The translations under genes were made by a program, and so were the position numbers. From Kiloniellales bacterium (GTDB lineage Bacteria; Pseudomonadota; Alphaproteobacteria; Kiloniellales; JAKSBE01): a stretch of 44,857 nucleotides of DNA. The DNA lies in contig JANQGU010000060.1 of assembly GCA_028282935.1 (NCBI GenBank), forward strand, positions 1-44,857, read 5' to 3'. Numbering within the stretch: position 1 is the first letter of the stretch; each line of letters opens with the position of its first letter. The notes beneath the pieces are model-generated. The model was given only the letters and a program-made list of their open reading frames with translations, had not been told where the DNA came from and searched no databases. Below are positions 8,468 through 27,349 of this stretch, piece by piece.

Positions 8468-9231
8468 TCAGCTCATCCAGTTGCCGCCGTCGACGTTCAG
8501 GGTCTGCGCGACCACGTAGTCGCTGTCCGCCGAGGCCAGAAAGATCGCCGCGCCGACATGGTCCTCGGGCCGGCCCATGCGCCCGAAGGGCACGACCTCG
8601 CCGACCAGGCGCTTCTTCTCGCCCAGGGCGCGGCCCTCGTACCTGGCGAAGAGGGCGTCGACCTCGTCCCACATCGGCGTGTCGACCACGCCGGGCGAGA
8701 TCCCGTTGACGTTGATCCCGTGGCGGATCAGGTCCAGGCCGGCCGACTGGGTCAGGCTGATGACCGCGGCCTTGCTGGCGCAGTAGACCGCGACCAGGGC
8801 CTCGCCCCGGCGGCCCGCCTGGGACGACAGGTTGATGACCTTGCCGCCTCGTCCCTGGGCGATCATCCGCTTGGCCACGGCCTGCAGGGTGAAGAGCAGG
8901 CCCTTGACGTTGACCGCGAAGACGCGGTCGTAGCTCGCCTCGGTGATCTCGACGATCGGCGCCATGTCGAAGACCGCGGCGTTGTTGACCAGGATGTCGA
9001 TGGGGCCCGAAGCGGTGGCCGCCTCGACCATGGCCTCGATCGAGCCCAGGTCGGTGACGTCGACGGGCACCGCGGACGCCCTTTCCCCGAGGTCGCGCGC
9101 GGTCGCGGCCGCCGCGTCGCCGTCGAGGTCGGCGACGACGACCGCCGCGCCCTCGCGAAGGTAGCCCTCCGCGATCGCGCGGCCGATGCCGCGGGCGCCG
9201 CCGGTGACGACGGCACGCTTGCCTTGCAGCT

Positions 9232-9235
<4 letters not shown>
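8468..9235 (-). CDS. SDR family oxidoreductase, sorbitol/galactitol dehydrogenase-like
   Basis: [40 protein letters not shown]..; [19 protein letters not shown]; start overlaps the upstream ATPase stop. Confidence 0.87.
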
Positions 9236-10236
<1,001 letters not shown>

Positions 10237-10248
10237 GGTCAGGTCTCC

Positions 10249-11079
10249 CTACTTGACGGCGCCGAAGGTGAGGCCGCGCACCAGCTGCTTCTGGCTGAAC
10301 CAGCCCATGACCAGGATCGGCGCGATGGCGAGCGTCGAGGCCGCCGAGAGCTTCGCCCAGAACAGCCCCTCCGGGCTGGAGTAGGAGGCGATGAAGGCGC
10401 TGAGCGGCGCGGCGTCGGCCGCCGTGAGGTTGAGGGTCCAGAAGGCCTCGTTCCAGGCGAGGATGATGTTGAGCAGCAGGGTCGAGGCGATTCCCGGCAC
10501 CGCCATCGGCGCCAGGATGTAGGCGATCTCCTTGCCGAGGGTCGCGCCGTCCATGCGCGCGGCCTCCAGGATCTCGCCGGGGATCTCTTTGAAGTAGGTG
10601 TAGAGCATCCACACGATGATCGGCAGGTTCATCAGCATGAGCACCATGACCAGGCCGATGCGGGTGTCGAGCAGGTCGAAGTCGCGGAACAGCAGGTAGA
10701 TGGGCACCAGCACCCCGACCGGCGGAAGCATCTTCGTCGACAGCATCCACATCAGGACGTCCTTGGTGCGCCGGGTCGGCGAGAAGGCCATGGACCAGGC
10801 CGCCGGGATCGCGACCAGCAGCCCCAGGCCGGTGGAGCCCAGCGAGATCACCACCGAGTTCATCGCGTGCTTGAGGTAGTCCGAGCGGCTCTGAACCTCG
10901 AAGTAGTTCTCGAAGGTCCACTGGAAGAACAGGAAGCTCGGCGGGGTGGCGATCGCCTCGCCCTCGGTCTTGAAGCTGGTCAGAATCGTCCAGAGGATCG
11001 GGAAGAACAGCGTCAGGCCGATCAGCCAGCCGATGACCGTGAAGGTGATCTTCCGCCTGCGTGTCACTTCGCGGGCCAT
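10249..11079 (-). CDS. Carbohydrate ABC transporter permease (MalG type)
   Basis: Multi-TM protein with EAA-like loop EAARMDGATLGKEIAYILAPMAVPGI. Confidence 0.92.
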   Translation of the reverse strand: MAREVTRRRKITFTVIGWLIGLTLFFPILWTILTSFKTEGEAIATPPSFLFFQWTFENYFEVQSRSDYLKHAMNSVVISLGSTGLGLLVAIPAAWSMAFSPTRRTKDVLMWMLSTKMLPPVGVLVPIYLLFRDFDLLDTRIGLVMVLMLMNLPIIVWMLYTYFKEIPGEILEAARMDGATLGKEIAYILAPMAVPGIASTLLLNIILAWNEAFWTLNLTAADAAPLSAFIASYSSPEGLFWAKLSAASTLAIAPILVMGWFSQKQLVRGLTFGAVK

Positions 11080-11083
11080 CGTT

Positions 11084-11956
11084 TCAGGTCTCCAGGTTCT
11101 TGCCGATCATGCGGATGAGGAAGATGGCGACGATGTTGGCGAGGATGATCGCGACCACGCCGCCGGCCGAGGCCCCGCCGACGTCGAACTGCAGCAGCGC
11201 CTGGGCGTAGATGAGATAGGAGATGTTGGTGCTTGCCGTGCCCGGTCCGCCGTTGGTGGTCACCAGGATCTCCGCGAAGACCGAGAGCAGGAAGATGGTC
11301 TCGATCAGGATCACCACGGTCAGCGCCCGCGCCAGGTGCGGCAGCGTGATGTAGAGGAAGATCGAGACGCTCCCCGCGCCATCCATTTCCGCGGCCTCCT
11401 TCTGCTCCTGGTCGAGCGACTGCAGCGCCGTGAGGATGATCAGGGTCGCGAAGGGCAGCCAGCCCCAGGCGACGATCATGGTGATCGAGAAGAGGGGAAG
11501 CACGGCGAGCCAGTCGACGGGCTCGAGACCGAAGCCGTGGGCAATCCAGGCGAAGAGCCCGTTGACCGGGTGCATGAACATGTTCTTCCAGACCAGGGCC
11601 GAGACCGTCGGCATGACGAAGAAGGGGGCGATCACCAGGAGCCTGACGATACCCTGTCCCCAGAAGGGCTGGTCGATCAGGAGGGCGAGGAAAGTGCCGC
11701 CGACCACGGTCACCAGCAGAACGCCGCCGACCAGCAGCAGCGTGTTGAAAAGCGCGTCCAGGAAGGCCGGATCGGTCAGGAAGAACTCGTAGTTTCCGAA
11801 GCCGGTGAACTCCTCCATGCCCGGCATCAGCAGGTTGTAGCGCAGGAAGGAGAAGTACAGGGTCATGCCGAGCGGAATGACCATCCACACCAGCAGCATC
11901 AACACGGCCGGCGACATCATCACGCGCGCGTTGGTCCGGGTGTGCAGGGTAGCCAT
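11084..11956 (-). CDS. Sugar ABC transporter permease (MalF type)
   Basis: Multi-TM protein with EAAEMDGAGSVSIFLYITLPHLARAL loop. Confidence 0.92.
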   Translation of the reverse strand: MATLHTRTNARVMMSPAVLMLLVWMVIPLGMTLYFSFLRYNLLMPGMEEFTGFGNYEFFLTDPAFLDALFNTLLLVGGVLLVTVVGGTFLALLIDQPFWGQGIVRLLVIAPFFVMPTVSALVWKNMFMHPVNGLFAWIAHGFGLEPVDWLAVLPLFSITMIVAWGWLPFATLIILTALQSLDQEQKEAAEMDGAGSVSIFLYITLPHLARALTVVILIETIFLLSVFAEILVTTNGGPGTASTNISYLIYAQALLQFDVGGASAGGVVAIILANIVAIFLIRMIGKNLET

Positions 11957-12063
11957 GATCTTTCCCTCTCAAGCGAGGCGGGCCTTCGCAGGGCCTTGTG
12001 GCGGTGAGAAGGGGGCCGCCCGCATCCGACTCGGTCGTAGGGGGCGGCCCGCCGAGGGGGGAG

Positions 12064-13374
12064 CTACTTGATGTAGCCGCCGCGCTTCATCTCGCGCGTG
12101 GTCAGGTTCTGCGCGTTCTGCAGCGCTTGCTCGACCGTGACGGTGCCGGCGAGCGCGGCGGAGAACTGCTGACCGACGGCGGTGCCGATGCCCTGGAACT
12201 CGGGGATCGCCACGAACTGCACGCCGACGTAGGGAACCGGATCGACCGCCGGCTCGGTCGGATCGGCCGAGTTGATGGATTGCAGGGTCATCTCGGCAAA
12301 GGGCGCGGCCTTCTGGTACTCGGGGTTGGCGTAGAGCGACTTGCGCGTGCCCGGCGGCACGTTGGCCCAGCCTTCCTTCTCCGCGACCAGCGCGAGGTAC
12401 TCCTTCGAGGTCGCCCAGGCGATGAAGGTCTGGGCCGCGTCCTTCTTCGCGGAACCGGCGGGCACGGCCAGCGACCAGGCCCAGAGCCAATTGCCCCGCT
12501 TGCCCAGCCCGTTGTCCGGCGCCAGAGCGAAGCCGACCTTGTCCGCGACCTGGGACTCGGCCGGGTTGGTCACGAAGGAGGCGGCCACGGTGGCGTCGAT
12601 CCACATGCCGCACTTGCCGGTCTGGAACAGGGCCAGGTTCTCGTTGAAGCCGTTCGACGAGGCGCCCGGAGGGCCCGCATCGTTCATCAGGTCGACGTAG
12701 AACTGCAGGGTGGTCTTCCACTGCTCACTGTCGAACTGCGGCTCCCAGTCCATGTCGAACCAGCGCGCGCCGAAGGAGTTGGCCGTCGCGCTGAGGAAGG
12801 CCATGTTCTCGCCCCAGCCGGCCTTGCCGCGCAGGCAGACACCATAGACCTCGTTGTCCTTGTCGGTGATCTTGCGCGCCGCATCGGCGACGAACTCCCA
12901 GGTGGGGGCGGGCGGCATCTTCAGGCCGGCGCTCTCGAAGAGATCCTTGCGGTACATCACCATGGAGCTCTCGCCGTAGAAGGGCGCGGCATAGAGCTTG
13001 CCGTCGATCGACAGGCCATCGCGGATCGCCGGCAGCAGATCGTCGACGTCGTAGTCGGCGCCGAGGCCGTCCAGGGCGACGAGCCAGTTCTGCTTGGCCC
13101 AGATCGGGACCTCGTAGGTGCCGATCGTCATGACGTCGTACTGGCCGCCCTTGGTCGCGATGTCGGTCGTGACCTTCTGGCGAAGGACGTTCTCCTCCAT
13201 CGTCACCCATTCCAGCTCGATACCCGGATGCTTGGCGGTGAAGGCCTCCGTCAGCTTCTGCATCCGGATCATGTCGCCGTTGTTGACGGTGGCGATGGTC
13301 AGCGTCTCCGCCGCGACGAGGGATGTCGAGCCGAGCAGGGCGCCGGCGGCGAGAGCGATTCGTATCGGCTTCAT
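12064..13374 (-). CDS. Polyol-type ABC transporter substrate-binding protein (SmoE/MtlE-like)
   Basis: MKPIRIALAAGALLGSTSLVAAETLTIATVNNGDMIRMQKLTEAFTAKHPGIELEWVTMEENVLRQKVTTDIATKGGQYDVMTIGTYE. Confidence 0.9.
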   Translation of the reverse strand: MKPIRIALAAGALLGSTSLVAAETLTIATVNNGDMIRMQKLTEAFTAKHPGIELEWVTMEENVLRQKVTTDIATKGGQYDVMTIGTYEVPIWAKQNWLVALDGLGADYDVDDLLPAIRDGLSIDGKLYAAPFYGESSMVMYRKDLFESAGLKMPPAPTWEFVADAARKITDKDNEVYGVCLRGKAGWGENMAFLSATANSFGARWFDMDWEPQFDSEQWKTTLQFYVDLMNDAGPPGASSNGFNENLALFQTGKCGMWIDATVAASFVTNPAESQVADKVGFALAPDNGLGKRGNWLWAWSLAVPAGSAKKDAAQTFIAWATSKEYLALVAEKEGWANVPPGTRKSLYANPEYQKAAPFAEMTLQSINSADPTEPAVDPVPYVGVQFVAIPEFQGIGTAVGQQFSAALAGTVTVEQALQNAQNLTTREMKRGGYIK

Positions 13375-13584
13375 TTGGGCTTGCCTCCCCAATATATGAG
13401 CATTCGCTCGTTAATTGAGCAGATGATCATACCTCCTGGATCGAGAGTCAAGAAATCTCTTCCGGGGTTTCGGCCGGAGGTTGCGCTGATCTTCGCTCTG
13501 TATCGGTCGATATCGGAGCTTTTAGCCTGAAACCGAGGGGCTTTAAGGCCAGGTTTCCGACCTCGGCGTGCCAGCCGCCGATGA

Positions 13585-13612
13585 TGTAATTGCCCAACAG
13601 TTGTGTAATTGC
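13585..13612. promoter_or_regulatory. Candidate operator: TGTAATTGC direct repeat spaced 19 bp
   Basis: TGTAATTGC at 13585-13593 and 13604-13612, immediately upstream of the SorC-family regulator. Confidence 0.4.
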
Positions 13613-13644
13613 TATCTTTCCGGATCGACAGACCTGGAGGTGAG

Positions 13645-14625
13645 ATGCCCCAGTCCTCGCTCAGCCCAGTGGACCGGCCGGTGGACAAGCGGCGCGACGA
13701 CGCGGCGCGGGCCGCATGGCTCTATTTCATCGGCGACCGCACCCAGGACGAGATCGCGGCCCAGCTCGACCTGTCGCGCCAGGCGGTTCAGCGCCTGGTC
13801 GCCTTTGCGGTGAGCGAGAAACTGATCAAGTTCCGTCTGGATCATCCCATAGCGTCCTGTACCGAGCTTGCGGCCAGGCTCGTCGGGCGCTACGGGCTCG
13901 AGTTCTGCGATGTCACCCCCAGCGACCCGGAGGCGCCGGGCTCGATCGCGGGGATCGCCGGGGCGACCGCGGCGCGCCTGCAGCGCCTTCTGGTGTCCAA
14001 GGCGCCGATGGTCGTTTGCGTCGGCACCGGCCGCACGCTGCGGGCCGCCGTGGAGGAGATGGATACGCTCGACCGTCCTCAGCACAAGGTCGTTTCGCTG
14101 GTCGGCGCCATGGCGGCCGGCGGGCACGCCAGTCCCTACGACGTGGTCATGCGGCTCGGCGACAAGGCCGGCGCGCAGCGCTATCCCATGCCGGCGCCCG
14201 TGCTGACGGAGACGGTCGAGGACCGGGAGGGGATCCAGAGCCAGCGCGCCTTCGCGGTGCTGCGGGAACTGCGCGCGCAGGCCCGTGCGAGTTTCGTCGG
14301 GATCAGCGAGATCGATTGGCAGTCCCCGGTCCATCGCGACGGCTTCATGACCGACACCGACATCTCGGCCCTGATCGAGGCGGGCGCCGTCGGCGAGATC
14401 ACGGGGTGGTCCTTCGACGCGGCCGGCCGGCCGCTCGACTGCCAGGTCAATCGGCGGATCGCCAGCCTGCCGCTCGAGAGTCCGCCCGAGCGCCTCACCG
14501 TGGTGGTCGGCGGCGGGCCGAAGAAGGTCGCGCCCCTGAAGGCCGCCCTGAAGGGCCGGCTCGCGTCGGCTCTCATCACCGACGAGGCAACGGCAGAGAC
14601 GCTCCTGTCGGACGCCGGCCAATAG
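13645..14625 (+). CDS. SorC-family sugar-binding transcriptional regulator
   Basis: Helix-turn-helix GDRTQDEIAAQLDLSRQAVQRLVAFAVSEKLI; sugar-binding domain VCVGTGRTLRAAVEEM; divergent from the polyol ABC operon. Confidence 0.9.
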   Translation: MPQSSLSPVDRPVDKRRDDAARAAWLYFIGDRTQDEIAAQLDLSRQAVQRLVAFAVSEKLIKFRLDHPIASCTELAARLVGRYGLEFCDVTPSDPEAPGSIAGIAGATAARLQRLLVSKAPMVVCVGTGRTLRAAVEEMDTLDRPQHKVVSLVGAMAAGGHASPYDVVMRLGDKAGAQRYPMPAPVLTETVEDREGIQSQRAFAVLRELRAQARASFVGISEIDWQSPVHRDGFMTDTDISALIEAGAVGEITGWSFDAAGRPLDCQVNRRIASLPLESPPERLTVVVGGGPKKVAPLKAALKGRLASALITDEATAETLLSDAGQ

Positions 14626-14704: not shown

Positions 14705-15697
14705 TCAGGCGCCCCAGCGCAGCGCCGCGGTATGCACCGGGGCGTCCCACAGTGCCTTCATCTCGTCGTCCAGGCGGGTCACCGTGATCGAGCAGCCGGC
14801 CATGTCCAGCGAGGTGCAGTAGTTGCCGACCAGGGAGCGGGCGATGGTCAGGCCCCGGGCTTCGCATTCGGCGGCCGCGGCCTGGTAGACCAGATAGAGC
14901 TCCATGAGAGGCGTGCCGCCCATCCCATTGACGAACAAAAGAACTTGCTGACCCTCCTTGGGCGCGAGGGTCTCGGAGATGGCGCCGACCATCTCGGCGG
15001 CGATCTCTTTGGCGGTTGCCAGGGCGACCCGGCGCCGGCCCGGCTCGCCGTGGATGCCGACGCCCATCTCCATCTCGTCCCCGCCGAGCTCGAAGGTCGG
15101 CTTGCCGGCGGCGGGCACGGTGCAGCTGGTCAGCGCCACGCCCATGGAGCCGGTCGCGGCGTTGACCCTTGCGCCCAGGGCCTGGCAGGTGGCGAGGTCG
15201 GCGCCGGCCTCGGCGGCGGCGCCGACGATCTTCTCGACCACCACGGTCCCGGCGACGCCGCGCCGGCCCTGGGTGTAGAGCGAGTCCTCGACCGCGACGT
15301 CGTCGTTGGTCAGCACGGTCGCGACCTCGCCGTCGAGCATCTCGGCGGCCATCTCGAAGTTCATCACGTCGCCGGAGTAGTTCTTGACGATGAAGAGGAT
15401 GCCGGCGCCGCCGTCGACCGCCTGGGCGGCGGCCAGCATCTGGTCCGGGGTCGGCGAGGTGAAGACCTCGCCCGGGCAGGCGGCGTCCAGCATCCCCTTG
15501 CCGACGAAGCCGGCGTGCAGCGGCTCGTGGCCGGAGCCGCCGCCGGAGACCAGGGCGACCTTGCCCTGGGCCGCACCGCCGGCGCGGGTCACGAACTTCG
15601 GCGCCAGGCTGACCGTGACCAGGTCGCCGTGCGCGGCGCCGAAGCCGCTCAGGCTCTCGTTCAGGATGTCGTCGACGGCGTTGATCAGCTTCTTCAT
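14705..15697 (-). CDS. dhaK: Dihydroxyacetone kinase subunit DhaK
   Basis: MKKLINAVDDILNESLSGFGAAHGDLV; VSGGGSGHEPLHAGFVGKGMLDAACPGEVFTSPTPDQM. Confidence 0.95.
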   Translation of the reverse strand: MKKLINAVDDILNESLSGFGAAHGDLVTVSLAPKFVTRAGGAAQGKVALVSGGGSGHEPLHAGFVGKGMLDAACPGEVFTSPTPDQMLAAAQAVDGGAGILFIVKNYSGDVMNFEMAAEMLDGEVATVLTNDDVAVEDSLYTQGRRGVAGTVVVEKIVGAAAEAGADLATCQALGARVNAATGSMGVALTSCTVPAAGKPTFELGGDEMEMGVGIHGEPGRRRVALATAKEIAAEMVGAISETLAPKEGQQVLLFVNGMGGTPLMELYLVYQAAAAECEARGLTIARSLVGNYCTSLDMAGCSITVTRLDDEMKALWDAPVHTAALRWGA

Positions 15698-16010: not shown

Positions 16011-16448
16011 TCACGACCGCTCGTTCTTGCTGGCGAGCGCGATCATGCGCCGGGCCAGTTCCTCGATGGCCTCGGCGACCTCGGCTTGGCGCTTCGGGTC
16101 GTCGAAGGCCGGGAGCTCGATCTGCAGGATGCGGCGGCCGGCGCTGGCGGCCTCCTCCGGGAAGACCGCCTGCTGCGGATGCGCCTTGCGGTAGGCGGCC
16201 AGGAAGGCGCGGCGCTCCTCCGGCGAGAAGTGGCAGATCTTCATGATGCTGGCCACGTGCTGCGCCGGCAGGGGCACCCGGTAGTTGGGATTGGTGATCT
16301 GCGAGACGAAGCTCTTGTGCGTGCCCAGGGCCTCGGCGATGCGCTGCCGGGTGCCGGAGGGCCGGCGCTCCAGGAAGGTCTTCAGCAGGCTCTTGTAGGC
16401 CCCGACCGCCTGGCCCGCGTCCGTCCGGTCCTCGGCGGCGTCGGTCAT
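16011..16448 (-). CDS. Small helix-turn-helix DNA-binding protein in the DHA/PTS operon
   Basis: YKSLLKTFLERRPSGTRQRIAEALGTHKSFVSQITNPNYRVPLPAQHVASIMKICHFSPEERRAFLAAY; 4-bp overlap with the EI gene. Confidence 0.72.
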   Translation of the reverse strand: MTDAAEDRTDAGQAVGAYKSLLKTFLERRPSGTRQRIAEALGTHKSFVSQITNPNYRVPLPAQHVASIMKICHFSPEERRAFLAAYRKAHPQQAVFPEEAASAGRRILQIELPAFDDPKRQAEVAEAIEELARRMIALASKNERS

Positions 16449-18097
16449 GGGCCCGCCGCCTTTCCGCGGTAGCCGCGCAGCGCCAGCTTGACCCGGCCGA
16501 GCTGGGCCGGCGCCACCGAGAGCGAGCGCAGGCCGCAGTCCAGCAGCAGCGGCACCGTGGCGGGGTCGCTGGCGAGGTCCCCGCAGAGCCCGATCTCGAC
16601 GCCGCGCGCCCGGGCCGCGGCGACGCTGCGTTGGATCAGCTCGATCACCGCCGGGTGGTCGGCGAGGGCGAGGCCGGCCAGCGCCGGGTTGTCACGGGCT
16701 GCGGCCATGACGTACTGGACCAGGTCGTTGGAGCCGATGGAGTAGAAGTCGGCCGCGAAGTCGCCGGCGGTCAGCGCGGCCGCCGGCACCTCGATCATGA
16801 TGCCGAGCGCCGGCCGGCCGTGCGCGACGCCCTCGGCGGCCAGCTCCGCCAGCACCTCGTCCAGCAGCCGTCGGGCCTGCGCGAGCTCGGCCGGCAGGGT
16901 GACCATCGGCAGCATGACCTTGAGCGGGCCCTCGGCGGCGGCCCGCGCCAGGGCGCGCAGCTGGACCCGGAAGACCTCGGGGTGGGCGAGGGAGAGCCGC
17001 AGGCCGCGCTGGCCCAGGAAGGGGTTGGGTTCGGCTTCCCTGGAGACGCCGGGGATCGGCTTGTCGCCGCCGGCGTCCAGGGTGCGGATGGTCACCGGCT
17101 TGCCCCCGGCCCAGGCCAGGATCCTGCGGTAGACCGCGAGCTGCGCCGCCTCGTCCGGCGGCTCCTCGCCGGCGAAGAGGAACTCGGTGCGGGTCAGGCC
17201 GATGCCGTCGCAATGCGCCGGGGAGAGGCCGTCCAGGATCGCCGGGTCGTCGACGTTGATCAGGACCTGGACCCTTTCGCCCTCGGCCGTGACCGCGTCT
17301 TCGGCGAGCGCTTCCGCGGCCGCCGCGTCGCCTTCGGCCCGGGCCTGGATGCGGCTCTGGACCTGCGCCAGGGTGCCGTCGCTGGGCGCCAGGATCAGCC
17401 GCCCGGCCTCGGCGTCGAGCACCGCCGGCGCGTCCGGCGCCAGGCGGTCGAGCTCGACCTCCAGGCCGACGATCAGGGGGATGCCGCGGGCCCGGGCCAG
17501 GATGGCGACATGGCTGGTCTTGCTGCCGCCGCGGATCGCGCCGCCGCCCAGCCGCTGCCAGTCGAGCTCCAGGAAGCGGCTCGGCGTCAGGTCCTCGGCC
17601 ACCAGGATCGCGCCCTCGGCGAGGGCCGCCTTCCCGTCGTCGCCCTCACCGGCCAGGGCGCGCAGCACGCGGCCCTTCAGGTCGGCCAGGTCGGCGGCCC
17701 GGGCCGAGAGGTACTCGTCCTCGCCGCCGCGGTACTCGGCGATCTCCCTGTCCAGGGCCTGGTCCCAGGCGCCCTGCGCGCTGGCGCCGGCCTGGACGGC
17801 GTCGAAGATCGGCGCCAGCAGGTCGTCGTCTTCGAGAAGCGCCTGTTGGAACTCCAGGATCTCGGCCGCCAACTCGTCCTCTCCGGCGATCAGCGCGTCC
17901 AGCTCCGCCTTGGCCTGCGCGACCGCGGCCAGCAGGGCGGCGCGCTCCTCGGCGCTGCTGCCGGCGCGGCGTCCGACCTGGTGCCCGGCCTGGTGTCCAC
18001 CCGGGTGCGTGCCGCCCTCGCGCGCGATGCGGCCGATCACCAGGCCCTCGGCGGCCGGGATCCCGGCGATCACCTGTTCCGCGGCGGGCTCAGCCAT
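16445..18097 (-). CDS. ptsP: Phosphoenolpyruvate-protein phosphotransferase (PTS enzyme I)
   Basis: GGSKTSHVAILARARGIP phospho-His region, RTEFLF, TIRTLDAGGDKP, NPFLGQRGLRLSL, FYSIGSNDLVQY, GLCGDLASDP. Confidence 0.93.
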   Translation of the reverse strand: MAEPAAEQVIAGIPAAEGLVIGRIAREGGTHPGGHQAGHQVGRRAGSSAEERAALLAAVAQAKAELDALIAGEDELAAEILEFQQALLEDDDLLAPIFDAVQAGASAQGAWDQALDREIAEYRGGEDEYLSARAADLADLKGRVLRALAGEGDDGKAALAEGAILVAEDLTPSRFLELDWQRLGGGAIRGGSKTSHVAILARARGIPLIVGLEVELDRLAPDAPAVLDAEAGRLILAPSDGTLAQVQSRIQARAEGDAAAAEALAEDAVTAEGERVQVLINVDDPAILDGLSPAHCDGIGLTRTEFLFAGEEPPDEAAQLAVYRRILAWAGGKPVTIRTLDAGGDKPIPGVSREAEPNPFLGQRGLRLSLAHPEVFRVQLRALARAAAEGPLKVMLPMVTLPAELAQARRLLDEVLAELAAEGVAHGRPALGIMIEVPAAALTAGDFAADFYSIGSNDLVQYVMAAARDNPALAGLALADHPAVIELIQRSVAAARARGVEIGLCGDLASDPATVPLLLDCGLRSLSVAPAQLGRVKLALRGYRGKAAGP

Positions 18098-18386
18098 CGA
18101 AGTCCCGTTCCACCAGGGCGACCAGGGCGGCGACCGCGGCGGCGGCGTCGCTGCCGCTGGCCCGGAAGCGGAGGGTCGCGCCGTGCCCGGCCTTCAGCTT
18201 CATGACCGCGTTGGGCGACTTGGCGTTGACCCAGTCGGCCTCCGCGCCGACCCGGACCTCGACCGCCGCCTGATGTGCCTTGGCGAGCTTGGTCAGCTTG
18301 ACCGCCGGCCGGGCGTGAAGCCCGGTCGGGTCCTGGATCACCGCCTCGCCGAGCGCTTCGGTCAGGTCCTTGGCCGCGTCGTTCAT
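18090..18386 (-). CDS. HPr-family phosphocarrier protein
   Basis: DPTGLHARPAVKLTKLAKAHQAAVEV with active-site His; KSPNAVMKLKAGHGATL. Confidence 0.9.
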   Translation of the reverse strand: MNDAAKDLTEALGEAVIQDPTGLHARPAVKLTKLAKAHQAAVEVRVGAEADWVNAKSPNAVMKLKAGHGATLRFRASGSDAAAAVAALVALVERDFDG

Positions 18387-18772
18387 GATAGGAACTCCTC
18401 GGCCGTGGCCCGCACCTCGGCCAGGGACGACCCGCCGGCGGCCTCGGTCGCGGCCATGACCGCGCCCTCGACGATGGGGGCGTTGCAGATCACGATCCTG
18501 TCCTGCATCTCGGCCGGCAGCATCTCGATGGCCATCTCGCTGTTGGTCTCGGCGCCGCCCAGGTCGATCAGCAGCGCCACCCCCTGGGGGCCGTAGACCG
18601 ACCGGATGGCCTCGATGATCGCCGGCACGTTGGTGCCCAGGCCGCCCTCCGGGTTGCCGCCGCAGTGGGCGACGCGGACCTCGTCGCCGACCATTTCCCG
18701 CACCATGTCGGCCGCGCCCTTCGCGACCTCCGCGGAATGCGAGACGATGACGATGGAGACGCAGTCGCTCAT
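18383..18772 (-). CDS. dhaM: PTS-dependent dihydroxyacetone kinase phosphotransferase subunit DhaM
   Basis: MSDCVSIVIVSHSAEVAKGAADMVREM; GGAETNSEMAIEMLP; PIVEGAVMAATEAAGG. Confidence 0.92.
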   Translation of the reverse strand: MSDCVSIVIVSHSAEVAKGAADMVREMVGDEVRVAHCGGNPEGGLGTNVPAIIEAIRSVYGPQGVALLIDLGGAETNSEMAIEMLPAEMQDRIVICNAPIVEGAVMAATEAAGGSSLAEVRATAEEFLS

Positions 18773-19377
18773 GCCTTGCCCTCGATGACGTCACAGACCG
18801 CATGGACCAGAAGCGCGGAGGAGCGTGCCCCCGGGTCCAGATGCCCGACCGAGCGCTCGCCCAGGAAGGAGGCCCGGCCCTTGGTCGCCAGCATGTCCTC
18901 GGTCGCGGCCAAGCCCCGGTCGGCCGCCGCCCGGGCCGCCGCGGTCAGGCCTCCGGGCTCGGCCGCGCGCAGGGCCTCCAGGACCGGGACCAGGACGTCC
19001 AGCATGGTCTTCTCCCCGGCCTCGGACTTGCCGCGCTTCTTCACCGCCGCGACGCCCTCGGCCAGCATCGCGGCGATATCCGGATCGCCGTCCTGGCCGG
19101 CGGCCTTGCCCAGGCCCATCAGCAGCGAGCCGTAAAGCGGGCCCGAGGCGCCGCCGACGTTCATGACCAGGGTCATGCCCGCCTTCTGCAGGGCGCCGCC
19201 CAGGGGCTGGGCGCCGATCTCCTCGGCGGCCGCGGCGATGGCGTCGAAGCCGCGCTTCATGTTGACGCCGTGGTCGCCGTCGCCGATCGCCTGGTCCAGC
19301 GTGGTCAGCTCCTCGGTGTGCGCGGCGATGGTCGCGGCGGTCGCCGCGATCAGGCGCGGCAGCAGGTCAGGTGCCAT
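18769..19377 (-). CDS. dhaL: Dihydroxyacetone kinase subunit DhaL
   Basis: LTTLDQAIGDGDHGVNMKRGFDAI; GGASGPLYGSLLMGLGKAAG; HLDPGARSSALLVHAV. Confidence 0.93.
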   Translation of the reverse strand: MAPDLLPRLIAATAATIAAHTEELTTLDQAIGDGDHGVNMKRGFDAIAAAAEEIGAQPLGGALQKAGMTLVMNVGGASGPLYGSLLMGLGKAAGQDGDPDIAAMLAEGVAAVKKRGKSEAGEKTMLDVLVPVLEALRAAEPGGLTAAARAAADRGLAATEDMLATKGRASFLGERSVGHLDPGARSSALLVHAVCDVIEGKA

Positions 19378-20467
19378 AGGCGGCCTCCGACTTCGATCCG
19401 GTTTTGGGCGATCCGGTTTTGGGCGATCCGGTTTTGGGCGATCCGGTTTCGGGTCCGGTGATCCTCCGGCCCCGCTCGTCGAAGAACAGGGCCGCGCCGG
19501 GGCGCACGGCGATCCGGGTCGCCTCGCCGATGGCCACGGGGGCGTGGCCGCCCAGCAGGGCCCGAAGGGTCAGGTCCTCGACCGAGAGCAGGACCAGGGT
19601 CTCGACGCCCAGGTGCTCCACCGCCAGGACCTCGGCGGCGACGCCGTCCTCGCGATGCAGCAGCACGTCCTCCGGACGGACCCCGACGGTCGTCGCGGCC
19701 GCGGGCCGTTCCTCGACGCCGAGGGTCCCGCTCGGCACCAGGTTGATCTGCGGGCTGCCCAGCCGCCGGGCGACGTCGATGTCGTTGGGCCGCTCGTAGA
19801 CCTCGCGCGGCGCGCCGACCTGGACCAGGCGGCCCTCCGCGAGCACGCCGATGCGGTCGGCGAGGGTCATGGCCTCGAGCTGGTCGTGGGTGACGTAGAG
19901 GATCGTGGCGCCGAGGTCGCGCTGGATGCGCTTCAGCTCGATGCGCAGGTCCTCGCGCAACTTGGCGTCGAGCGAGGAGAGCGGCTCGTCCATCAGGTAG
20001 ATCGAGGGCCGGCGCACCAGGGCCCGCCCGATGGCGACCCGCTGCATCTCGCCGCCGGAGAGCTGGGTCGCGCGGTTCTTCAGCTTGGACTCGATGCGCA
20101 GCAGGCGGGCGATCTCCTCCACGCGCGCCTGGATCTCGGCGGCCGGCCGCTTGCGGCCCGGCGCGCGCAGCGGGAAGGCCAGGTTGTCGAAGACCGTGTA
20201 GTGCGGATAGAGCGAGTACTGCTGGAACACGAAGCAGACGTCGCGCTCGGCGGGCGTGGTCTTGGTGACGTCGCGGCCGTCGATCTCGATGCGGCCCTCT
20301 TCCGGCCGCTCCAGGCCGGCGACCAGGCGCAGGGTCGTGGTCTTGCCGGCCCCGGTCGGGCCGAGCAGCACCACGAACTCGCCGTCGGCGATGGTGAGCG
20401 ACAGATCGGAGACGGCGAGCGTCTTGTCGAAGCGCTTGGTGACGCCGGTCAGCGCGACTTCAGGCAT
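19367..20467 (-). CDS. Sugar ABC transporter ATP-binding protein (second ATPase)
   Basis: [52 protein letters not shown]-terminal repeat (TGSPK)n. Confidence 0.94.
   Translation of the reverse strand: MPEVALTGVTKRFDKTLAVSDLSLTIADGEFVVLLGPTGAGKTTTLRLVAGLERPEEGRIEIDGRDVTKTTPAERDVCFVFQQYSLYPHYTVFDNLAFPLRAPGRKRPAAEIQARVEEIARLLRIESKLKNRATQLSGGEMQRVAIGRALVRRPSIYLMDEPLSSLDAKLREDLRIELKRIQRDLGATILYVTHDQLEAMTLADRIGVLAEGRLVQVGAPREVYERPNDIDVARRLGSPQINLVPSGTLGVEERPAAATTVGVRPEDVLLHREDGVAAEVLAVEHLGVETLVLLSVEDLTLRALLGGHAPVAIGEATRIAVRPGAALFFDERGRRITGPETGSPKTGSPKTGSPKTGSKSEAAYGT
19395..19454. repeat. Tandem 15-bp repeat, 4 copies, in the 3' end of the ABC ATPase gene
   Basis: GATCCGGTTTTGGGC x3 plus GATCCGGTTTCGGGT; encodes TGSPK TGSPK TGSPK TGS on the minus strand. 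Confidence 0.95.
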
Positions 20468-21569
20468 GCCCGCCTCCGGCGCCGGCTCCGGCGTAGAGCT
20501 CGCTCATCACCGCCCTGTCGCTCTCCGGATGGAAGACCACGAGGCGCTCGGTCTCGAAGTCGAGGCCTACGGTCTCGCCGTAGTCGACCCGCACCGTGTT
20601 GGGCGCCCGGATCTTGAGCCGGCCGGCATCGGTATCGACGGTGACCAGCTGCCGCGTGCCCATGTACTCGACGCCGAAGACCCGGCCGCGCAGCGGGCCG
20701 TCCCCGGCGATGCGGATGTGCTCGGGCCGGACGCCGAGGACCGCGTCGGCATGGTCCAGGGCCTCTTGCAGCCTCGGTACGGCGATCCGGCCGCCGTTGA
20801 CCTCGACGCCGCTGGCGCCGGCCTCGAGACCGCCCTTGGCCCGGAGGAAGTTCATCGCCGGGCTGCCGATGAAACCTGCGACGAAGCGGGTCGCCGGCCG
20901 TTCGTAGACCTCCATGGGCGGGCCGACCTGCAGCACCTCGCCCTGGTCCATGACGCAGATCCGGTCGGCCATGGACATGGCCTCGATCTGGTCGTGGGTG
21001 ACGTAGACGGTGGTCGCGCCGATGCGGTTGTGCAGCAGGCGCAGCTCCTCGCACATCAGCTCGCGGAACTCCGCGTCCAGGGCGCCCAGAGGCTCGTCCA
21101 TGAGGAAGGCCTTGGCCCGGCGGACGATGGCGCGGCCCAGGGCGACCCGCTGCCGGTCGCCGCTCGACAGGCCGCCGACCGGCCGGTTCAGCAGGTGGTC
21201 GATGCGCAGCAGCTTGGCGACCTCCTCGGTGCGCTCGCGGATCTCGCGGCGCGGCAGGCGCTGGATGCGCAGGGGAAAGGAGATGTTCTTGCGCACGTTC
21301 ATGTGCGGGTAGAGCGCGAAGAGCTGGAACACGAAGGCGATGTCGCGCTCGGAGCCGCGGTTGAAGGTGACGTCCTCGCCGTCGAGGAAGATCTTGCCGG
21401 CGCTCGGCATCTCCAGGCCGGCGATCATGCGCAGGGTCGTGGTCTTGCCGCAGCCCGAGGGCCCCAGCATGACGAAGAACTCGCCGTCGCGGATCGTGAA
21501 GGCGGAGTCCCGCACCGCGACGAAGTCGCCGAAGGCCTTGTGCAGATTCTCGATGCGGATCTCGGCCAA
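20460..21569 (-). CDS. Sugar ABC transporter ATP-binding protein (first ATPase)
   Basis: GPSGCGKTTTLRMIAGLE, LSSGDRQRVALGRAIVRR, LMDEPLGALDAEFR. Confidence 0.94.
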   Translation of the reverse strand: MAEIRIENLHKAFGDFVAVRDSAFTIRDGEFFVMLGPSGCGKTTTLRMIAGLEMPSAGKIFLDGEDVTFNRGSERDIAFVFQLFALYPHMNVRKNISFPLRIQRLPRREIRERTEEVAKLLRIDHLLNRPVGGLSSGDRQRVALGRAIVRRAKAFLMDEPLGALDAEFRELMCEELRLLHNRIGATTVYVTHDQIEAMSMADRICVMDQGEVLQVGPPMEVYERPATRFVAGFIGSPAMNFLRAKGGLEAGASGVEVNGGRIAVPRLQEALDHADAVLGVRPEHIRIAGDGPLRGRVFGVEYMGTRQLVTVDTDAGRLKIRAPNTVRVDYGETVGLDFETERLVVFHPESDRAVMSELYAGAGAGGGHA

Positions 21570-21573
21570 GGGG

Positions 21574-21774
21574 TCACTCCGGGAAATGGCTGACGATGAC
21601 GAAGCCGACGGTGCCGGCCAGGATCACGGCGAAGGAGTAGCCGAAGAGGGTCAGGGAGAAGGGCTGCATCAGCATGACCACGCCGGCCGCAATGGCGGCC
21701 GTCGCGGCGTTCTCCCAGGGCCCGCGGCGGAAGAAGCGGGCCAGGCCCACGCTCTGGTTCCGGGTTTCGCTCAT
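21574..21774 (-). CDS. 66-aa putative membrane protein in the ABC operon
   Basis: MSETRNQSVGLARFFRRGPWENAATAAIAAGVVMLMQPFSLTLFGYSFAVILAGTVGFVIVSHFPE; ATGA overlap with upstream permease; two hydrophobic segments. Confidence 0.75.
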   Translation of the reverse strand: MSETRNQSVGLARFFRRGPWENAATAAIAAGVVMLMQPFSLTLFGYSFAVILAGTVGFVIVSHFPE

Positions 21775-22724
21775 TTGCGCACCGCCCCGAAGGTGATGCC
21801 GCGCAGCAACTGGTTGCGCAGGACCACGGTGAAGAAGACGATCGGCAGCAGGAACAGGGTCGTGCCCGCGGCCACCGCCGGCCAGTCCAGGCCGCCCTCG
21901 CCGATGATCAGCGGGATGTAGGGCGGCGCGGTCTGGGCCTCGCCGCTGGTCAGCAGCAGCACGAAGGCGTACTCGTTCCAGGCGAAGATCAGGCAGAAGA
22001 TCGCCGTCGCCGCGATGCCGGTGCGGGCCTGCGGCAGCACCACCTTCCAGAAGGCCTGCAGGCGGGAATAGCCGTCGACCACGGCGGCCTCCTCGTATTC
22101 CCGCGGGATCTCGTCGATGAAGCCCTTCAGCAGCCACACCGCCAGCGAGATGTTGACCGCGGTGTAGAGCAGGATCATGCCCAGCGCGGTGTCCGAGAGC
22201 CCGAGGGTCCGGTACATCAGGTAGATCGGGATCGCCACCGCGATGGGCGGCATCATGCGGGTCGAGAGGATGAAGAACAGCAGGTCGTCCTTCAGCGGCA
22301 CCTTGAAGCGCGAGAAGCCGTAGGCCGCCAGGGTCCCCAGGAAGACCGCCAGGAAGGTCGAGCCGAAGCCGATGACGATGGAGTTGAGGTAGCGGTCGGC
22401 GAACTTCGACGGCCCGGCGATGACCATGTTCCGCTTGCGCACGATCTCGTCGTACCAGGTCTCGGGCGGGCCCAGGCTCTCGATGTACTCCGAGGTCTGC
22501 CGGGTGCGCGTGGTGAAGAGGTTCACGTAGCCTTCCATCGAGGGCTCGAAGAAGACCTTCGGCGGATAGGAGATCGAGTCCGGCGGCGACTTGAAACCGG
22601 TGAGGAAGATCCAGACCAGCGGGATCATGGTGACCAGGGCATAGACCACGACCAGGCCGCCGGCGAGCCACTTGCCGCCGCTGCTGGCCTCGACGACCGA
22701 ATGTGCCGTGCTCTTGGCGCTCAT
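21771..22724 (-). CDS. Carbohydrate ABC transporter permease (MalG type)
   Basis: MSAKSTAHSVVEASSGGKWLAGGLVVVYALVTMIPLVWIFLTGFKSPPDS; EEAAVVDGYSRLQAFWKVVLPQARTGI loop. Confidence 0.93.
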   Translation of the reverse strand: MSAKSTAHSVVEASSGGKWLAGGLVVVYALVTMIPLVWIFLTGFKSPPDSISYPPKVFFEPSMEGYVNLFTTRTRQTSEYIESLGPPETWYDEIVRKRNMVIAGPSKFADRYLNSIVIGFGSTFLAVFLGTLAAYGFSRFKVPLKDDLLFFILSTRMMPPIAVAIPIYLMYRTLGLSDTALGMILLYTAVNISLAVWLLKGFIDEIPREYEEAAVVDGYSRLQAFWKVVLPQARTGIAATAIFCLIFAWNEYAFVLLLTSGEAQTAPPYIPLIIGEGGLDWPAVAAGTTLFLLPIVFFTVVLRNQLLRGITFGAVRK

Positions 22725-23671
22725 TGCTTCACCCGATTGAGGGCCTTGACGTAGATGTTGCCCAGCCCGAAGACGGTGACGAAGAGGATCACCGCGAAGG
22801 CCGAGGAATAGCCGGTGCGCCAGCTCTCGAAGGCTTCGCGCTTGAGGTTGATCGAGGCCAGCTCGGTCGTCGAGCCGGGGCCGCCCGAGGTCAGCTCGAC
22901 CACCATGTCGAACATCTTGAAGTTCTCGATGCCGCGGAACAGCACGGCCAGCATGAGGAAGGGCAGGACCCGGGGCAGGGTGATGTGCCAGAACTTCTGC
23001 AGCGCGTTGGCGCGGTCGATCTCGGCGGCCTCGTAGAGGTACTCCGGGATCGACCGCAACCCGGCCAGGCAGAGCAGCATGATGTAGGGCGTCCACATCC
23101 AGGTATCGACGATGATGATCGACCATGGCGCCAGTCCGACCGAGCCGATCATGTCGATCGGGCCGAAGTCGCCGAAGAGGTTGAGGATATAGCTGAAGAT
23201 CCCGGTCTGCGGCTGGTAGAGGTAGGTCCAGAAGACGCCCACGACCGCCGGCGACAGCATCATCGGGATCAGGATCACCGTGGTCCAGAAGCCGGCGCCC
23301 TTGAAGTTGCGGTTGATCAGCAGCGCCAGTCCCAGGCCGAGCAGGACCTGCAGGGCCATGGTCCAGCAGACGAAGTGCGCCGTCGCCTGCAGGTAGCCCC
23401 AGATGTCCTCGCTGCCCAGCAGCCGCTCGTAGTTGCGGGTGCCGACCCATTCGATCGGCCGCCCGGGCCGGTTGGCGCGGTAGTTGGTGAAGGAGAGGTA
23501 GACCGTCCAGATCAGCGGGAAGATGTTGATCGCCAGCAGCAGGACGATGGTCGGCGAGATGAAGATCCAGGCGATGGCCCGGTCCGAGAGCCCGCGAAAG
23601 CGGGTCGCCAGGGGCTGCGGCGTGCCGCGCGCCACCTGTTCGGCCACTCCGTTGATGGGACTGTCCGTCAT
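22721..23671 (-). CDS. Sugar ABC transporter permease (MalF type)
   Basis: MTDSPINGVAEQVARGTPQ; EAAEIDRANALQKFWHITLPRVLPF loop. Confidence 0.93.
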   Translation of the reverse strand: MTDSPINGVAEQVARGTPQPLATRFRGLSDRAIAWIFISPTIVLLLAINIFPLIWTVYLSFTNYRANRPGRPIEWVGTRNYERLLGSEDIWGYLQATAHFVCWTMALQVLLGLGLALLINRNFKGAGFWTTVILIPMMLSPAVVGVFWTYLYQPQTGIFSYILNLFGDFGPIDMIGSVGLAPWSIIIVDTWMWTPYIMLLCLAGLRSIPEYLYEAAEIDRANALQKFWHITLPRVLPFLMLAVLFRGIENFKMFDMVVELTSGGPGSTTELASINLKREAFESWRTGYSSAFAVILFVTVFGLGNIYVKALNRVKQ

Positions 23672-23854: not shown

Positions 23855-25198
23855 CTACAGCTTGCCGTCGTCCTCGAAGGTCACGGTCCAGTCCTCGATC
23901 AGCTTGTCGAGGGCTTCCTGGGCCGTGCCCTTGTCGGCCACGACGTAGTCGTGCACGCGCTTCTGCATGGCCTGCATCAGCTCGGCGTAGGTCGGCTCCT
24001 GCCAGAAGTCCTGCACGCCCGACATGGCCTTCAGGAAGTCGGCCGCGAAGGGCGCCGTCTTGGCGAAGTCCGGATCGCCCAGGACTGCGGTGTGGCAGGA
24101 GTAGCCGCCCAGCGACCACCACTTCTTCTGGACGTCGGGCTTGGCGAACCACTTGATGTACTGCAGCGCCAGGTCCTTCTTGTCCGAGTAGGACACGACC
24201 GAGATGCCCTGGCCGCCGAGGGTCGAGGCCTCGATCTTCTGGCCGGGGTTGACGAAGAAGCCGGTCTTGTCGCCGCCCACGGCCTCGTCCTTGGCCAGGC
24301 CCGGGAAGAAGGCGAACCAGTTCATCATCATCGCCACCTGGCCCGACTTATAGGCGTCCAGGTTGGCGACCATGTAGGAATCGGAGTAGCCCGGCGGCGT
24401 GCAGCACTCGTAGATCGTCTTGTAGAACTCGAGCCCCTCGACCGCGTCGGCGGAGTTCACGAAGCCCTTCATGTCGTAGGGCTTTTCCGGGTTCTGGTAC
24501 TGGAAGCCCCAGGAGTAGAGCGCCGAGGTGACGCCCATGGTGATACCTTCCGAACCGCGCTCGGTGAAGATCGCGGCGCCGTAGACGGTCTTGCCGTCGA
24601 TCTCGCGGCCCTGGAAGAACTCGGCGACCTCCTTCAGCTCCGTCCAGGTCTTGGGCGGGGCGAGGTCGCGGCCGTGCTTGGCCTTGAACGCGGACTGAAG
24701 CTCCGGCTTGGCGAACCAGTCCTTGCGGTAGACCCAGCCGAGGGCATCGCCCATGGCCGGCAGGGCCCAGTACTCCGGGGCGCCCTTGGGCCAGGTCGAG
24801 TAGGCGTAGACCGTGGCCGGCAGGAAGTCATCCATCGAGATGCCTTCCTTGTCGAAGAACTCGTTCAGCTTGACGTAGTGGCCGTAGGTGGCGGAACCGC
24901 CGATCCACTGGCTGTCGCCGATCAGCAGGTCGCAGAGCTTGCCGCCGGAGTTCAGCTCGTTCAGGAACCGGTCGGCGAAATTGGTCCAGGGCACGAACTC
25001 GAACTTCATCGAGATGCCGGTCTCGGCGGTGAAGTCCTTCGACAGCTCGACCAGCGCGTTCGCCGGATCCCAGGCCGCCCAGCAGAGCGTGATCTCCTTG
25101 TCCTGGGCCAGGGCCCCCGTCGTGATCACCGTTGTGGCGCCGGTCGTGGCCGCGGCGGTCAACGCCGCGGCAGCCAGACACGCCTTCCATGTCCGCAT
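23855..25198 (-). CDS. Sugar ABC transporter substrate-binding protein
   Basis: Signal peptide MRTWKACLAAAALTAAATTGATTVITTGALAQDK; EITLCWAAWDPANALVELSKDFTAETGISMKFEFVPW. Confidence 0.92.
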   Translation of the reverse strand: MRTWKACLAAAALTAAATTGATTVITTGALAQDKEITLCWAAWDPANALVELSKDFTAETGISMKFEFVPWTNFADRFLNELNSGGKLCDLLIGDSQWIGGSATYGHYVKLNEFFDKEGISMDDFLPATVYAYSTWPKGAPEYWALPAMGDALGWVYRKDWFAKPELQSAFKAKHGRDLAPPKTWTELKEVAEFFQGREIDGKTVYGAAIFTERGSEGITMGVTSALYSWGFQYQNPEKPYDMKGFVNSADAVEGLEFYKTIYECCTPPGYSDSYMVANLDAYKSGQVAMMMNWFAFFPGLAKDEAVGGDKTGFFVNPGQKIEASTLGGQGISVVSYSDKKDLALQYIKWFAKPDVQKKWWSLGGYSCHTAVLGDPDFAKTAPFAADFLKAMSGVQDFWQEPTYAELMQAMQKRVHDYVVADKGTAQEALDKLIEDWTVTFEDDGKL

Positions 25199-25300: not shown

Positions 25301-25317
25301 GTTTAGTGATACTAAAC
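25301..25317. promoter_or_regulatory. Palindromic operator candidate GTTTAG-N5-CTAAAC (site 1)
   Basis: GTTTAGTGATACTAAAC; extra CTAAAC half-site at 25325-25330; upstream of the ABC/DHA operon. Confidence 0.7.
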
Positions 25318-25484
25318 TGGCTAACTAAACTCCTGTCAAGGGGCGACTGCCGGCCGGCGATAGATCATGAGCGTTTACAGGACAATTCCGGACATTTAGC
25401 ATCATCCGGAAAGCAATCGGCGCAGTATTATTGCTGCATCGCACCATCAGTTGTTGCGCCGCAAAAATCTGCAACCGGACGAAA

Positions 25485-25501
25485 GTTTAGTTCGCCTAAA
25501 C
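25485..25501. promoter_or_regulatory. Palindromic operator candidate GTTTAG-N5-CTAAAC (site 2)
   Basis: GTTTAGTTCGCCTAAAC; identical arms and spacing to site 1; 34 bp upstream of the amidohydrolase start. Confidence 0.7.
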
Positions 25502-25535: not shown

Positions 25536-26811
25536 ATGGCAGACCTGCAATTCACCAACGTGCGCGTCCTCGACGGCAGCGGCACGGAGCCCTTCGAAGG
25601 CAGCGTCCTGCTGCGCGGCAACCGTATCGCCCAGATCGCCAAGGCCGGCGAGCCCCTGGACGGCAATGGCGCGGAGGTGATCGACGGCGGTGGGGCGACC
25701 CTGATGCCGGGGCTGATCGAGCCCCACGCCCACATCTCCTTCTGCGACACGCCGGATCTGGAAAGCCTGGGCGACATCCCGCCGGAAGAGCACACCTTGC
25801 TGACCATGAAGTACGGCCAAGAAGATGCTCGACCAGGGCTTCACGGCGATCTTCAGCGCCGCCGCCGCCAAGCCGCGGCTCGACGTCGTGATCCGCAACG
25901 CCATCGACGCCGGCGACATTCCGGGGCCGCGCATGCGCGCCGCCAGCCCCGAGCTGACCCCGACCAGCGGCCTGGGCGACGTGCGCCGCTGGCACATGCA
26001 CCGCGAGACCTTCGCCCTGACCTGCGACGGCGCCGACGAGTTCCGGAAGGTGGCGCGCATGATGGTGCGCGAAGGGGTCGACACCCTGAAGATGAATCCC
26101 TCCGGCGACGAGTTCATCCCCTGCGCCAGGGCCCACGAGACGGTCATGAACGAGGACGAGGTGGCTGCCGTCTGCGAGGTCGGGCGCAGCCGCGGCCTGA
26201 ACGTCGCGGTGCACACCCGCTCGGCCGAGAGCGTCAAGATGTCCCTGCGCCAGGGCGCCAACGTGCTCTACCACTGCACGCTTGCGGACGAGGAGGCCAT
26301 CGACATGCTGGAGGCCAAGAAGGACGAGATCTTCGTCGCGCCCACCGCCGGCATGGCCTACGTCACCTCGATCGGCGAGGGCCGGGACTACGGCATCGAC
26401 GCCGACCATCCGGTGGCGCAGTTCTTCGCCGCCGAGCTGGAGGCCGGCGCCGGGGCCATGAAGGAGCTCAAGAAGCGCGGCGTCCGGGTCCTGCCGGGCG
26501 GCGACTACGGCTTCGCCTGGAACCCCATCGGCACCAACGCCCGCGACATGGAGCACTTCGTCAACCTGCTCGACTACACGCCCCTGGAGGCGATCCGTGC
26601 CGCGACGCAGTACAGCGGCGAGCTCTTCGGCGAGGCGATTGGCCTGGTGCGGGAAGGCTACCTGGCCGACCTGATCCTGGTCGACGGCGACCCCTCCAAG
26701 GACATTTCGATCCTCCAGGACGCCGAGAGGCTGCTCGCGATCATGAAGGACGGCGCCTTCCACAAGGCCCCGGCCGAAGGCCTCGGCGCCGGGCGGGCCG
26801 CGGCGGAGTAG
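25536..26811 (+). pseudogene. Metal-dependent amidohydrolase family gene with an apparent +1 frameshift near 25815-25818
   Basis: N-terminal part MADLQFTNVRVLDGSGTEPFEGSVLLRGNRIAQI..LMPGLIEPHAHISF..EEHTLLTMKYG in one frame; continuation KKMLDQGFTAIFSAAAAKPRLDVVIRNAI..RAAAE in the next (ORF 25825-26811). Confidence 0.85.
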
Positions 26812-26911
26812 CGCCGCGCCGGCCGTCGCGGCGGTGGGGGCGAGAAATCTGCGTCCTTTGCGGGCCGGCTGCGTCTTATCCGACGAAAGCCACCCAGCAA
26901 GGAGAACGACC

Positions 26912-27349
26912 ATGCGCCTGCAACTGGCCCTGAACGTCCGGAACATCGACGAGGCCGTGGCCTACTACGGCAAGCTCTTCGGCGCGAAGCCGCACAAGCG
27001 GCGGCCGGGCTACGCCAACTTCGCCATCGCGACGCCGCCCCTGAAGCTCGTGCTCTTCGAGAACCCCGAGGCTGCGGAGCGCCTGCACCATCTGGGCGTC
27101 GAGGTCCTGGCACCCGGCGCCCTCGCCGAGACCCGCGGCCGTCTCGAGGCCCTTGGCCTCCTCGACGACGTGCAGCTCGAAGAGACCTGCTGTCACGCGA
27201 CCCAGGACAAGCTCTGGTCCCAGGAGCCCCAGGGCCTGCGTTGGGAGTGGTACCGCATCACCGACGATGCGCCGGCCAAGGAACGGGTCGAGGCGGCGCC
27301 GATCTGCTGCAGCGGCGACGCCCCGTCGCGGCCGGCAAGCGCGACCTGA
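26912..27349 (+). CDS. VOC-family protein, ArsI/CadI-like
   Basis: MRLQLALNVRNIDEAVAYYGKLFGAKPHKRRPGYANFAI..PPLKLVLFE..HHLGVEV..ETCCHATQDKLWSQEPQGLRWEWY. Confidence 0.85.
   Translation: MRLQLALNVRNIDEAVAYYGKLFGAKPHKRRPGYANFAIATPPLKLVLFENPEAAERLHHLGVEVLAPGALAETRGRLEALGLLDDVQLEETCCHATQDKLWSQEPQGLRWEWYRITDDAPAKERVEAAPICCSGDAPSRPASAT

Follow-up and report, generated by a model that had tools for sequence, protein, structure and literature searches.

The GTTTAG half-sites found upstream of an ABC transporter/dihydroxyacetone kinase operon in a Kiloniellales genome are, with a probability of about 0.8 for pairing and repression taken jointly, the operator of a small helix-turn-helix (HTH) protein encoded within that operon, which would act as an autorepressor. 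This reading, drawn from comparative sequence analysis, proposes a regulator for an importer/kinase operon that is widespread, and would give a conserved "hypothetical protein" a probable function and a DNA target. No published description of the operon, the motif or the regulator was found in the open-access literature.

Organisation of the operon

The window, i.e. the whole stretch of 44,857 nucleotides that was analysed, carries on its minus strand an operon starting with the genes for an ABC substrate-binding protein (23855-25198; Pfam SBP_bac_1), two ABC permeases (22721-23671 and 21774-22724; both Pfam BPD_transp_1) and two ABC ATPases with a TOBE domain (20460-21569 and 19367-20467). 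These are followed by the genes for a DhaL-type kinase subunit (18769-19377), a DhaM/HPr-type phosphocarrier region (18090-18803), an Enzyme I (EI)-type PEP phosphotransferase (16445-18097), the proposed regulator (16011-16448), whose start overlaps the EI gene by 4 bp, and the DhaK kinase subunit (14705-15697). Together, the second set forms a PTS-dependent dihydroxyacetone kinase module (DhaK-DhaL-DhaM/HPr-EI), with DhaK (TIGR02363), DhaL (TIGR02365) and EI (TIGR01417) above the curated cutoffs, the HPr domain recognised by TIGR01003 and the DhaM part assigned by analogy with loci L103 and L106. The candidate regulator gene, lying between those of EI and DhaK, is thus inside an operon that carries the candidate operator upstream of its first gene, in the window as well as in relatives.

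Beyond DhaK, a second, polyol-type transporter operon is present (8471-14625), encoding a binding protein, two permeases, an ATPase and a short-chain dehydrogenase; a SorC-type regulator gene (13612-14625) diverges from it, and the arrangement resembles polyol uptake operons. On the other side, a glyoxalase-fold ORF (26801-27346, plus strand) overlaps the end of the divergent amidohydrolase gene.

Palindromes and half-sites

In the original prediction, two GTTTAG-N5-CTAAAC palindromes and an extra CTAAAC half-site were described between the operon and the amidohydrolase gene, and their matched arms with different spacers were taken to indicate a protein-binding site. The two putative palindromic operators do lie at 25301-25317 (GTTTAGTGATACTAAAC, transporter side) and 25485-25501 (GTTTAGTTCGCCTAAAC, amidohydrolase side), with perfect arms and at a distance of 184 bp, and the third half-site is present at 25325-25330 (GTTTAG on the minus strand). 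They bracket the gap as proposed: the binding-protein start (25198) is preceded at 103 bp by the first cluster, and the amidohydrolase ATG (25536) at 34 bp by the second. With up to two mismatches allowed, the window contains two palindrome matches vs. 0.07 expected in shuffles. As for the genome assembly (5.2 Mb in 460 contigs, 81% complete), exact copies occur at these two places only, which is not the picture of a frequent and randomly placed motif, and a reversed control pattern gave no match.

The pattern GTTTAG-N(0-30)-GTTTAG has a single occurrence in the genome, formed on the minus strand by the extra half-site and the first palindrome (GTTTAG-N7-GTTTAG, halves 13 bp apart). Direct repeats of 12-13 bp recur in relatives and, judged from this conservation, the extra half-site, mentioned only in passing in the original prediction, belongs to the core of the motif.

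Between the palindromes (25360-25480), degenerate half-sites (GTTTAC, ATTTAG) are kept in the sister species (G002). The same interval holds TGC-rich stretches that resemble PhaR-type sites and show mild enrichment in some relatives.

Conservation in related genomes

The transporter-side block reads GTTTAGTTCAACTAAACCTATTTACTAAAC in the sister species vs. GTTTAGTGATACTAAACTGGCTAACTAAAC in the window; both spacers have changed, whereas the three arms are all kept. In a same-genus genome without the operon (G001), the motif was not found. On a broader scale, the comparison took in 80 loci that encode a binding-protein relative; 60 of them have the HTH gene, and the window was added to these. Of the resulting 61 HTH-bearing loci, 60 (59 of the 60 relatives, plus the window) carry at least one exact half-site in the 350 bp upstream of the operon, the remaining one, L030, having the HTH gene and no exact half-site; among random stretches of the same loci, 4.4% contain a half-site. 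The 6-mers with the strongest enrichment upstream are TTTAGT and GTTTAG.

A second sample, drawn independently of the binding protein, comprised 385 alphaproteobacterial genomes, of which 13, including that of the window, possess the HTH gene. The binding protein is likewise encoded by ten of the 12 others, each of them with at least one half-site, although some of these ten may duplicate organisms of the first set. The half-sites are, on these comparisons, a phylogenetic footprint conserved upstream of orthologous operons. The strict pattern GTTTAG-N13/14-CTAAAC-N6/7-MTAAAC matched a single, unrelated place in the 385 genomes and none in those bearing the HTH gene, being too strict to be informative. 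A search for GTTTAGT-N(0-22)-ACTAAAC in 11 genomes, ten of which are HTH-bearing and one of which, G132, is not known to have the HTH gene, returned four places, three at the operon promoter and one elsewhere, in genome G311 (C3:707756-707775, GTTTAGTCAGATTACTAAAC); the latter, outside the operon, is a possible further regulon member.

Retention of the arms despite spacer change, rarity in the genome and conservation upstream of orthologues give the protein-binding-site reading strong support at the level of sequence. GTTTAGT can act as a -10-like element, so that the palindromes might be a chance or structural feature (a promoter spacer or a hairpin) with no dedicated protein; yet the genome contains no further exact copy, the spacers have changed and the arms have not, the motif is conserved across Proteobacteria and it is absent where the HTH gene is absent, all of which makes this explanation extremely improbable.

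Association of the motif with the HTH gene

The sites and the HTH gene dissociate from the transporter genes in both directions. In a Roseibium/Hwanghaeella clade of nine loci, the ABC genes are kept and the HTH gene is absent, not only from the loci but from all nine genomes searched (0/9); the DhaL, carrier and EI genes are also missing in the four loci examined. Eight of the nine have no half-site, and L072 has one. Conversely, in genome G402 the kinase module and the HTH gene occur without the ABC genes, and TTGACATGTTTAG precedes the first gene of the module. Because of this two-way dissociation, the motif is seen to follow the HTH-kinase module. Hahella, an apparent exception, carries its HTH gene elsewhere in the genome. 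On the binding-protein tree, the HTH gene was lost only twice and the motif is absent both times; the Fisher value for the co-occurrence (3.7e-8) is inflated by relatedness, and the strength of the association resides in these two independent loss events.

A regulator encoded elsewhere, e.g. of the LacI, SorC or ROK type, might bind the sites instead, the HTH gene then having another job. Upstream LacI genes do occur in 18 loci, with GTTTAG sites present in four of these (L015, L028, L029 and L031), and the window itself contains the SorC-type gene. Against this, the LacI gene adjoins the binding-protein gene in the Roseibium/Hwanghaeella loci, and the four Roseibium promoters that were read (L041, L047, L056 and L062) share a perfect palindrome, TGACATACGTATGTCA, and no GTTTAG, for which LacI was rejected as a general reader of the motif; the SorC gene was rejected too, since it borders the other operon, where no GTTTAG pair is present. 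No other regulator tracking the motif as the HTH gene does was found among the loci compared, and a reader encoded elsewhere is considered unlikely. The LacI gene with TGACATACGTATGTCA upstream of the Roseibium binding-protein gene looks like a regulator swap.

Promoter anatomy and proposed mechanism

On the minus strand, a candidate -35 box of the transporter/kinase operon (TTGACA, 25334-25339) is followed 3 bp behind by a half-site. A 17-bp spacing from this box places the candidate -10 element (TTTAGT, 25316-25311) on the second half-site, where it is overlapped by the GTTTAGT half of the first palindrome, and the GTTTAG-N7-GTTTAG direct repeat sits within the promoter spacer. The same TTGACA-N3-GTTTAG phase, with at most one mismatch in the -35 box, is common to ten loci, the window included, and a half-site lies within 14 bp of an exact TTGACA in 15 of the 61 loci vs. 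2.7 expected. Half-sites between the -35 and -10 elements fit a repressor and, given their start 3 bp behind the -35 box, autorepression by the HTH protein is the likely mechanism. Some loci have half-sites with no preceding TTGACA-like box, so that the sites might lie upstream of the promoter and the HTH protein might bind them as an activator; their position in the window and at least nine other loci is, however, one typical of repressors, as far as the predicted promoter elements indicate, and activation appears quite improbable.

As an autorepressor, the HTH protein, probably as a dimer, would bind two or three half-sites between and over the -35 and -10 elements and block RNA polymerase at the transporter promoter. 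Since it is encoded in the operon that it would control, it would also limit its own level. We infer that its signal probably comes from an operon partner, e.g. DhaK, DhaL or the phosphocarrier proteins, because no ligand-binding or sensor domain was recognisable in it.

The divergent amidohydrolase

A gene of the amidohydrolase superfamily (25536-26811, plus strand) is divergent from the operon. Its frame is split by one base at 25816-25817 in the window and is open over 424 aa in the sister species, the frameshift being either an assembly error or a recent decay. Divergent orthologues are found in G002, L027, L018 and L026 (apparently identical with contig G014). In L023 and L033, an amidohydrolase relative is located on the operon side, about 10 kb further along. 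Among the five divergent cases, four (the window, G002, L027 and L026) have an exact half-site no more than 75 bp from the amidohydrolase start and L018 has none, while the full palindrome on this side is present in the window only, its left arm alone being intact in G002.

The original prediction had one repressor acting on both units. A candidate for it has been found, the HTH gene of the operon, and the link with the amidohydrolase turned out weaker, with a half-site in four of five genomes and the full palindrome confined to the window. Co-control of the amidohydrolase with the operon in this lineage, for which the second palindrome would serve, is nevertheless plausible and somewhat favoured by the conserved half-sites. 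The amidohydrolase-side palindrome could also be an auxiliary looping operator for the transporter promoter, with no control of the amidohydrolase, as the eroded right arm in G002, the lack of a site near the gene in L018 and the 184-bp distance suggest; this is a possibility of some weight, though not the expected one, the half-sites near the amidohydrolase start in four of the five divergent genomes speaking against it.

The HTH protein and site geometry

The HTH protein, annotated as "hypothetical protein" also in public plasmid records, has 145 residues. Orthologues are encoded in laboratory strains that possess the operon, namely Sinorhizobium fredii NGR234 (pNGR234b, near 414.3-414.7 kb) and Pelagibius litoralis DSM 21314 (L015). 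The AlphaFold model of the protein (mean pLDDT 89) predicts a five-helix HTH domain over residues 3-89, followed by a strand-like segment with LP at its end and by a long C-terminal helix. The Pfam HTH_31 match is below cutoff, and the NCBIfam search gave nothing useful. Fold matches are lambda-repressor-like, a phage 186 regulator included, none with an E-value under 0.1; the best in the PDB is 3kz3, a lambda repressor fragment (probability 1.00, E = 0.11, TM 0.68 by target). Against viral and PDB structures, only generic HTH matches were obtained, and none of the libraries searched contained a match to the C-terminal part. The recognition helix, [KT][NH][RK]SF[VI][ST]Q, is nearly invariant, with Q50 in 44 and R/K45 in 43 of 45 HTH proteins; L055 and L129 have P at position 45 and L033 has H at position 50, and half-sites are still present in all three.

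A 12-13 bp direct repeat is found with regulators that have T at position 43, and a 19-21 bp inverted pair with non-T regulators, where an additional repeat of 12-13 bp often occurs on the other side. Subtype and geometry agree in 45 of 49 scorable loci, with only two independent contrasts on well-supported branches and nearly always the same direction. In these loci, half-site geometry follows the predicted regulator subtype, which would make a case of one regulator family using direct or inverted half-sites by subtype. The spacing varies beyond what most dimeric repressors tolerate, which counts against the sites being the operator of the HTH protein.

Comparison with known systems

In the DhaR/DhaKLM system of Escherichia coli, a dedicated regulator is encoded next to a PEP-dependent dihydroxyacetone kinase module, the kinase subunits serving as sensor. 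The operon described here has a module of the same type and, by the present proposal, a dedicated regulator, and DhaKLM offers a precedent for sensing through kinase subunits; DhaR, however, is a large activator, whereas the HTH protein is small, has no recognisable sensor domain and is encoded inside the operon. Lambda-repressor-like proteins (Cro/C1, XRE) provide the best fold matches and the weak HTH_31 hit, but the protein is below every curated cutoff and its C-terminal part is unmatched.

ArdK of plasmid R388, a member of the KorA family, binds direct and inverted repeats (PMC9723621). One HTH dimer thus reads both arrangements with variable spacing, as would be needed here, although the ArdK half-site is TTGACA, its setting is a plasmid, and membership of the HTH protein in the KorA family is not supported.

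KorA (TrfB) of plasmid RK2 binds the operator TGTTTAGCTAAACA (PMC11790492), in which the half-site GTTTAG/CTAAAC is identical to that of the operon, and in both cases the operator is near promoter elements. Both proteins are small and share an N-terminal HTH, a strand-like segment that ends in LP and a C-terminal helix. The base-reading residues of KorA are Q53 and R48 (PMC4889941), with which Q50 and R/K45 of the HTH protein are in register through an alignment of 6% probability; given the exceptions in L033, L055 and L129, the parallel is not strict. Unlike KorA, the HTH protein stands in a chromosomal metabolic operon instead of plasmid control, its half-site spacing is variable, and the fold search favours lambda-repressor-like domains. 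There is no significant sequence relationship: no KorA match was found in Pfam, NCBIfam or PDB sequence searches, and KorA/TrfB family membership was not supported (hhalign probability 6% over 22 columns only). In L024, L025 and L045, the exact KorA operator core, GTTTAGCTAAAC, is located upstream of the binding-protein gene of the chromosomal operon.

It is a speculative and rather doubtful extension that small HTH repressors of chromosomal origin form an undescribed family, widespread in Alphaproteobacteria and present in Beta- and Gammaproteobacteria, which reads the KorA half-site, tolerates direct and inverted arrangements and may take its signal from kinase or phosphocarrier proteins, not from a small ligand. 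If so, dihydroxyacetone kinase operons and IncP plasmids could share an operator code, and cross-talk of KorA on the exact KorA sites of these three loci would become testable. The half-site held in common with plasmid KorA turns regulatory cross-talk between plasmids and chromosomes into a concrete question.
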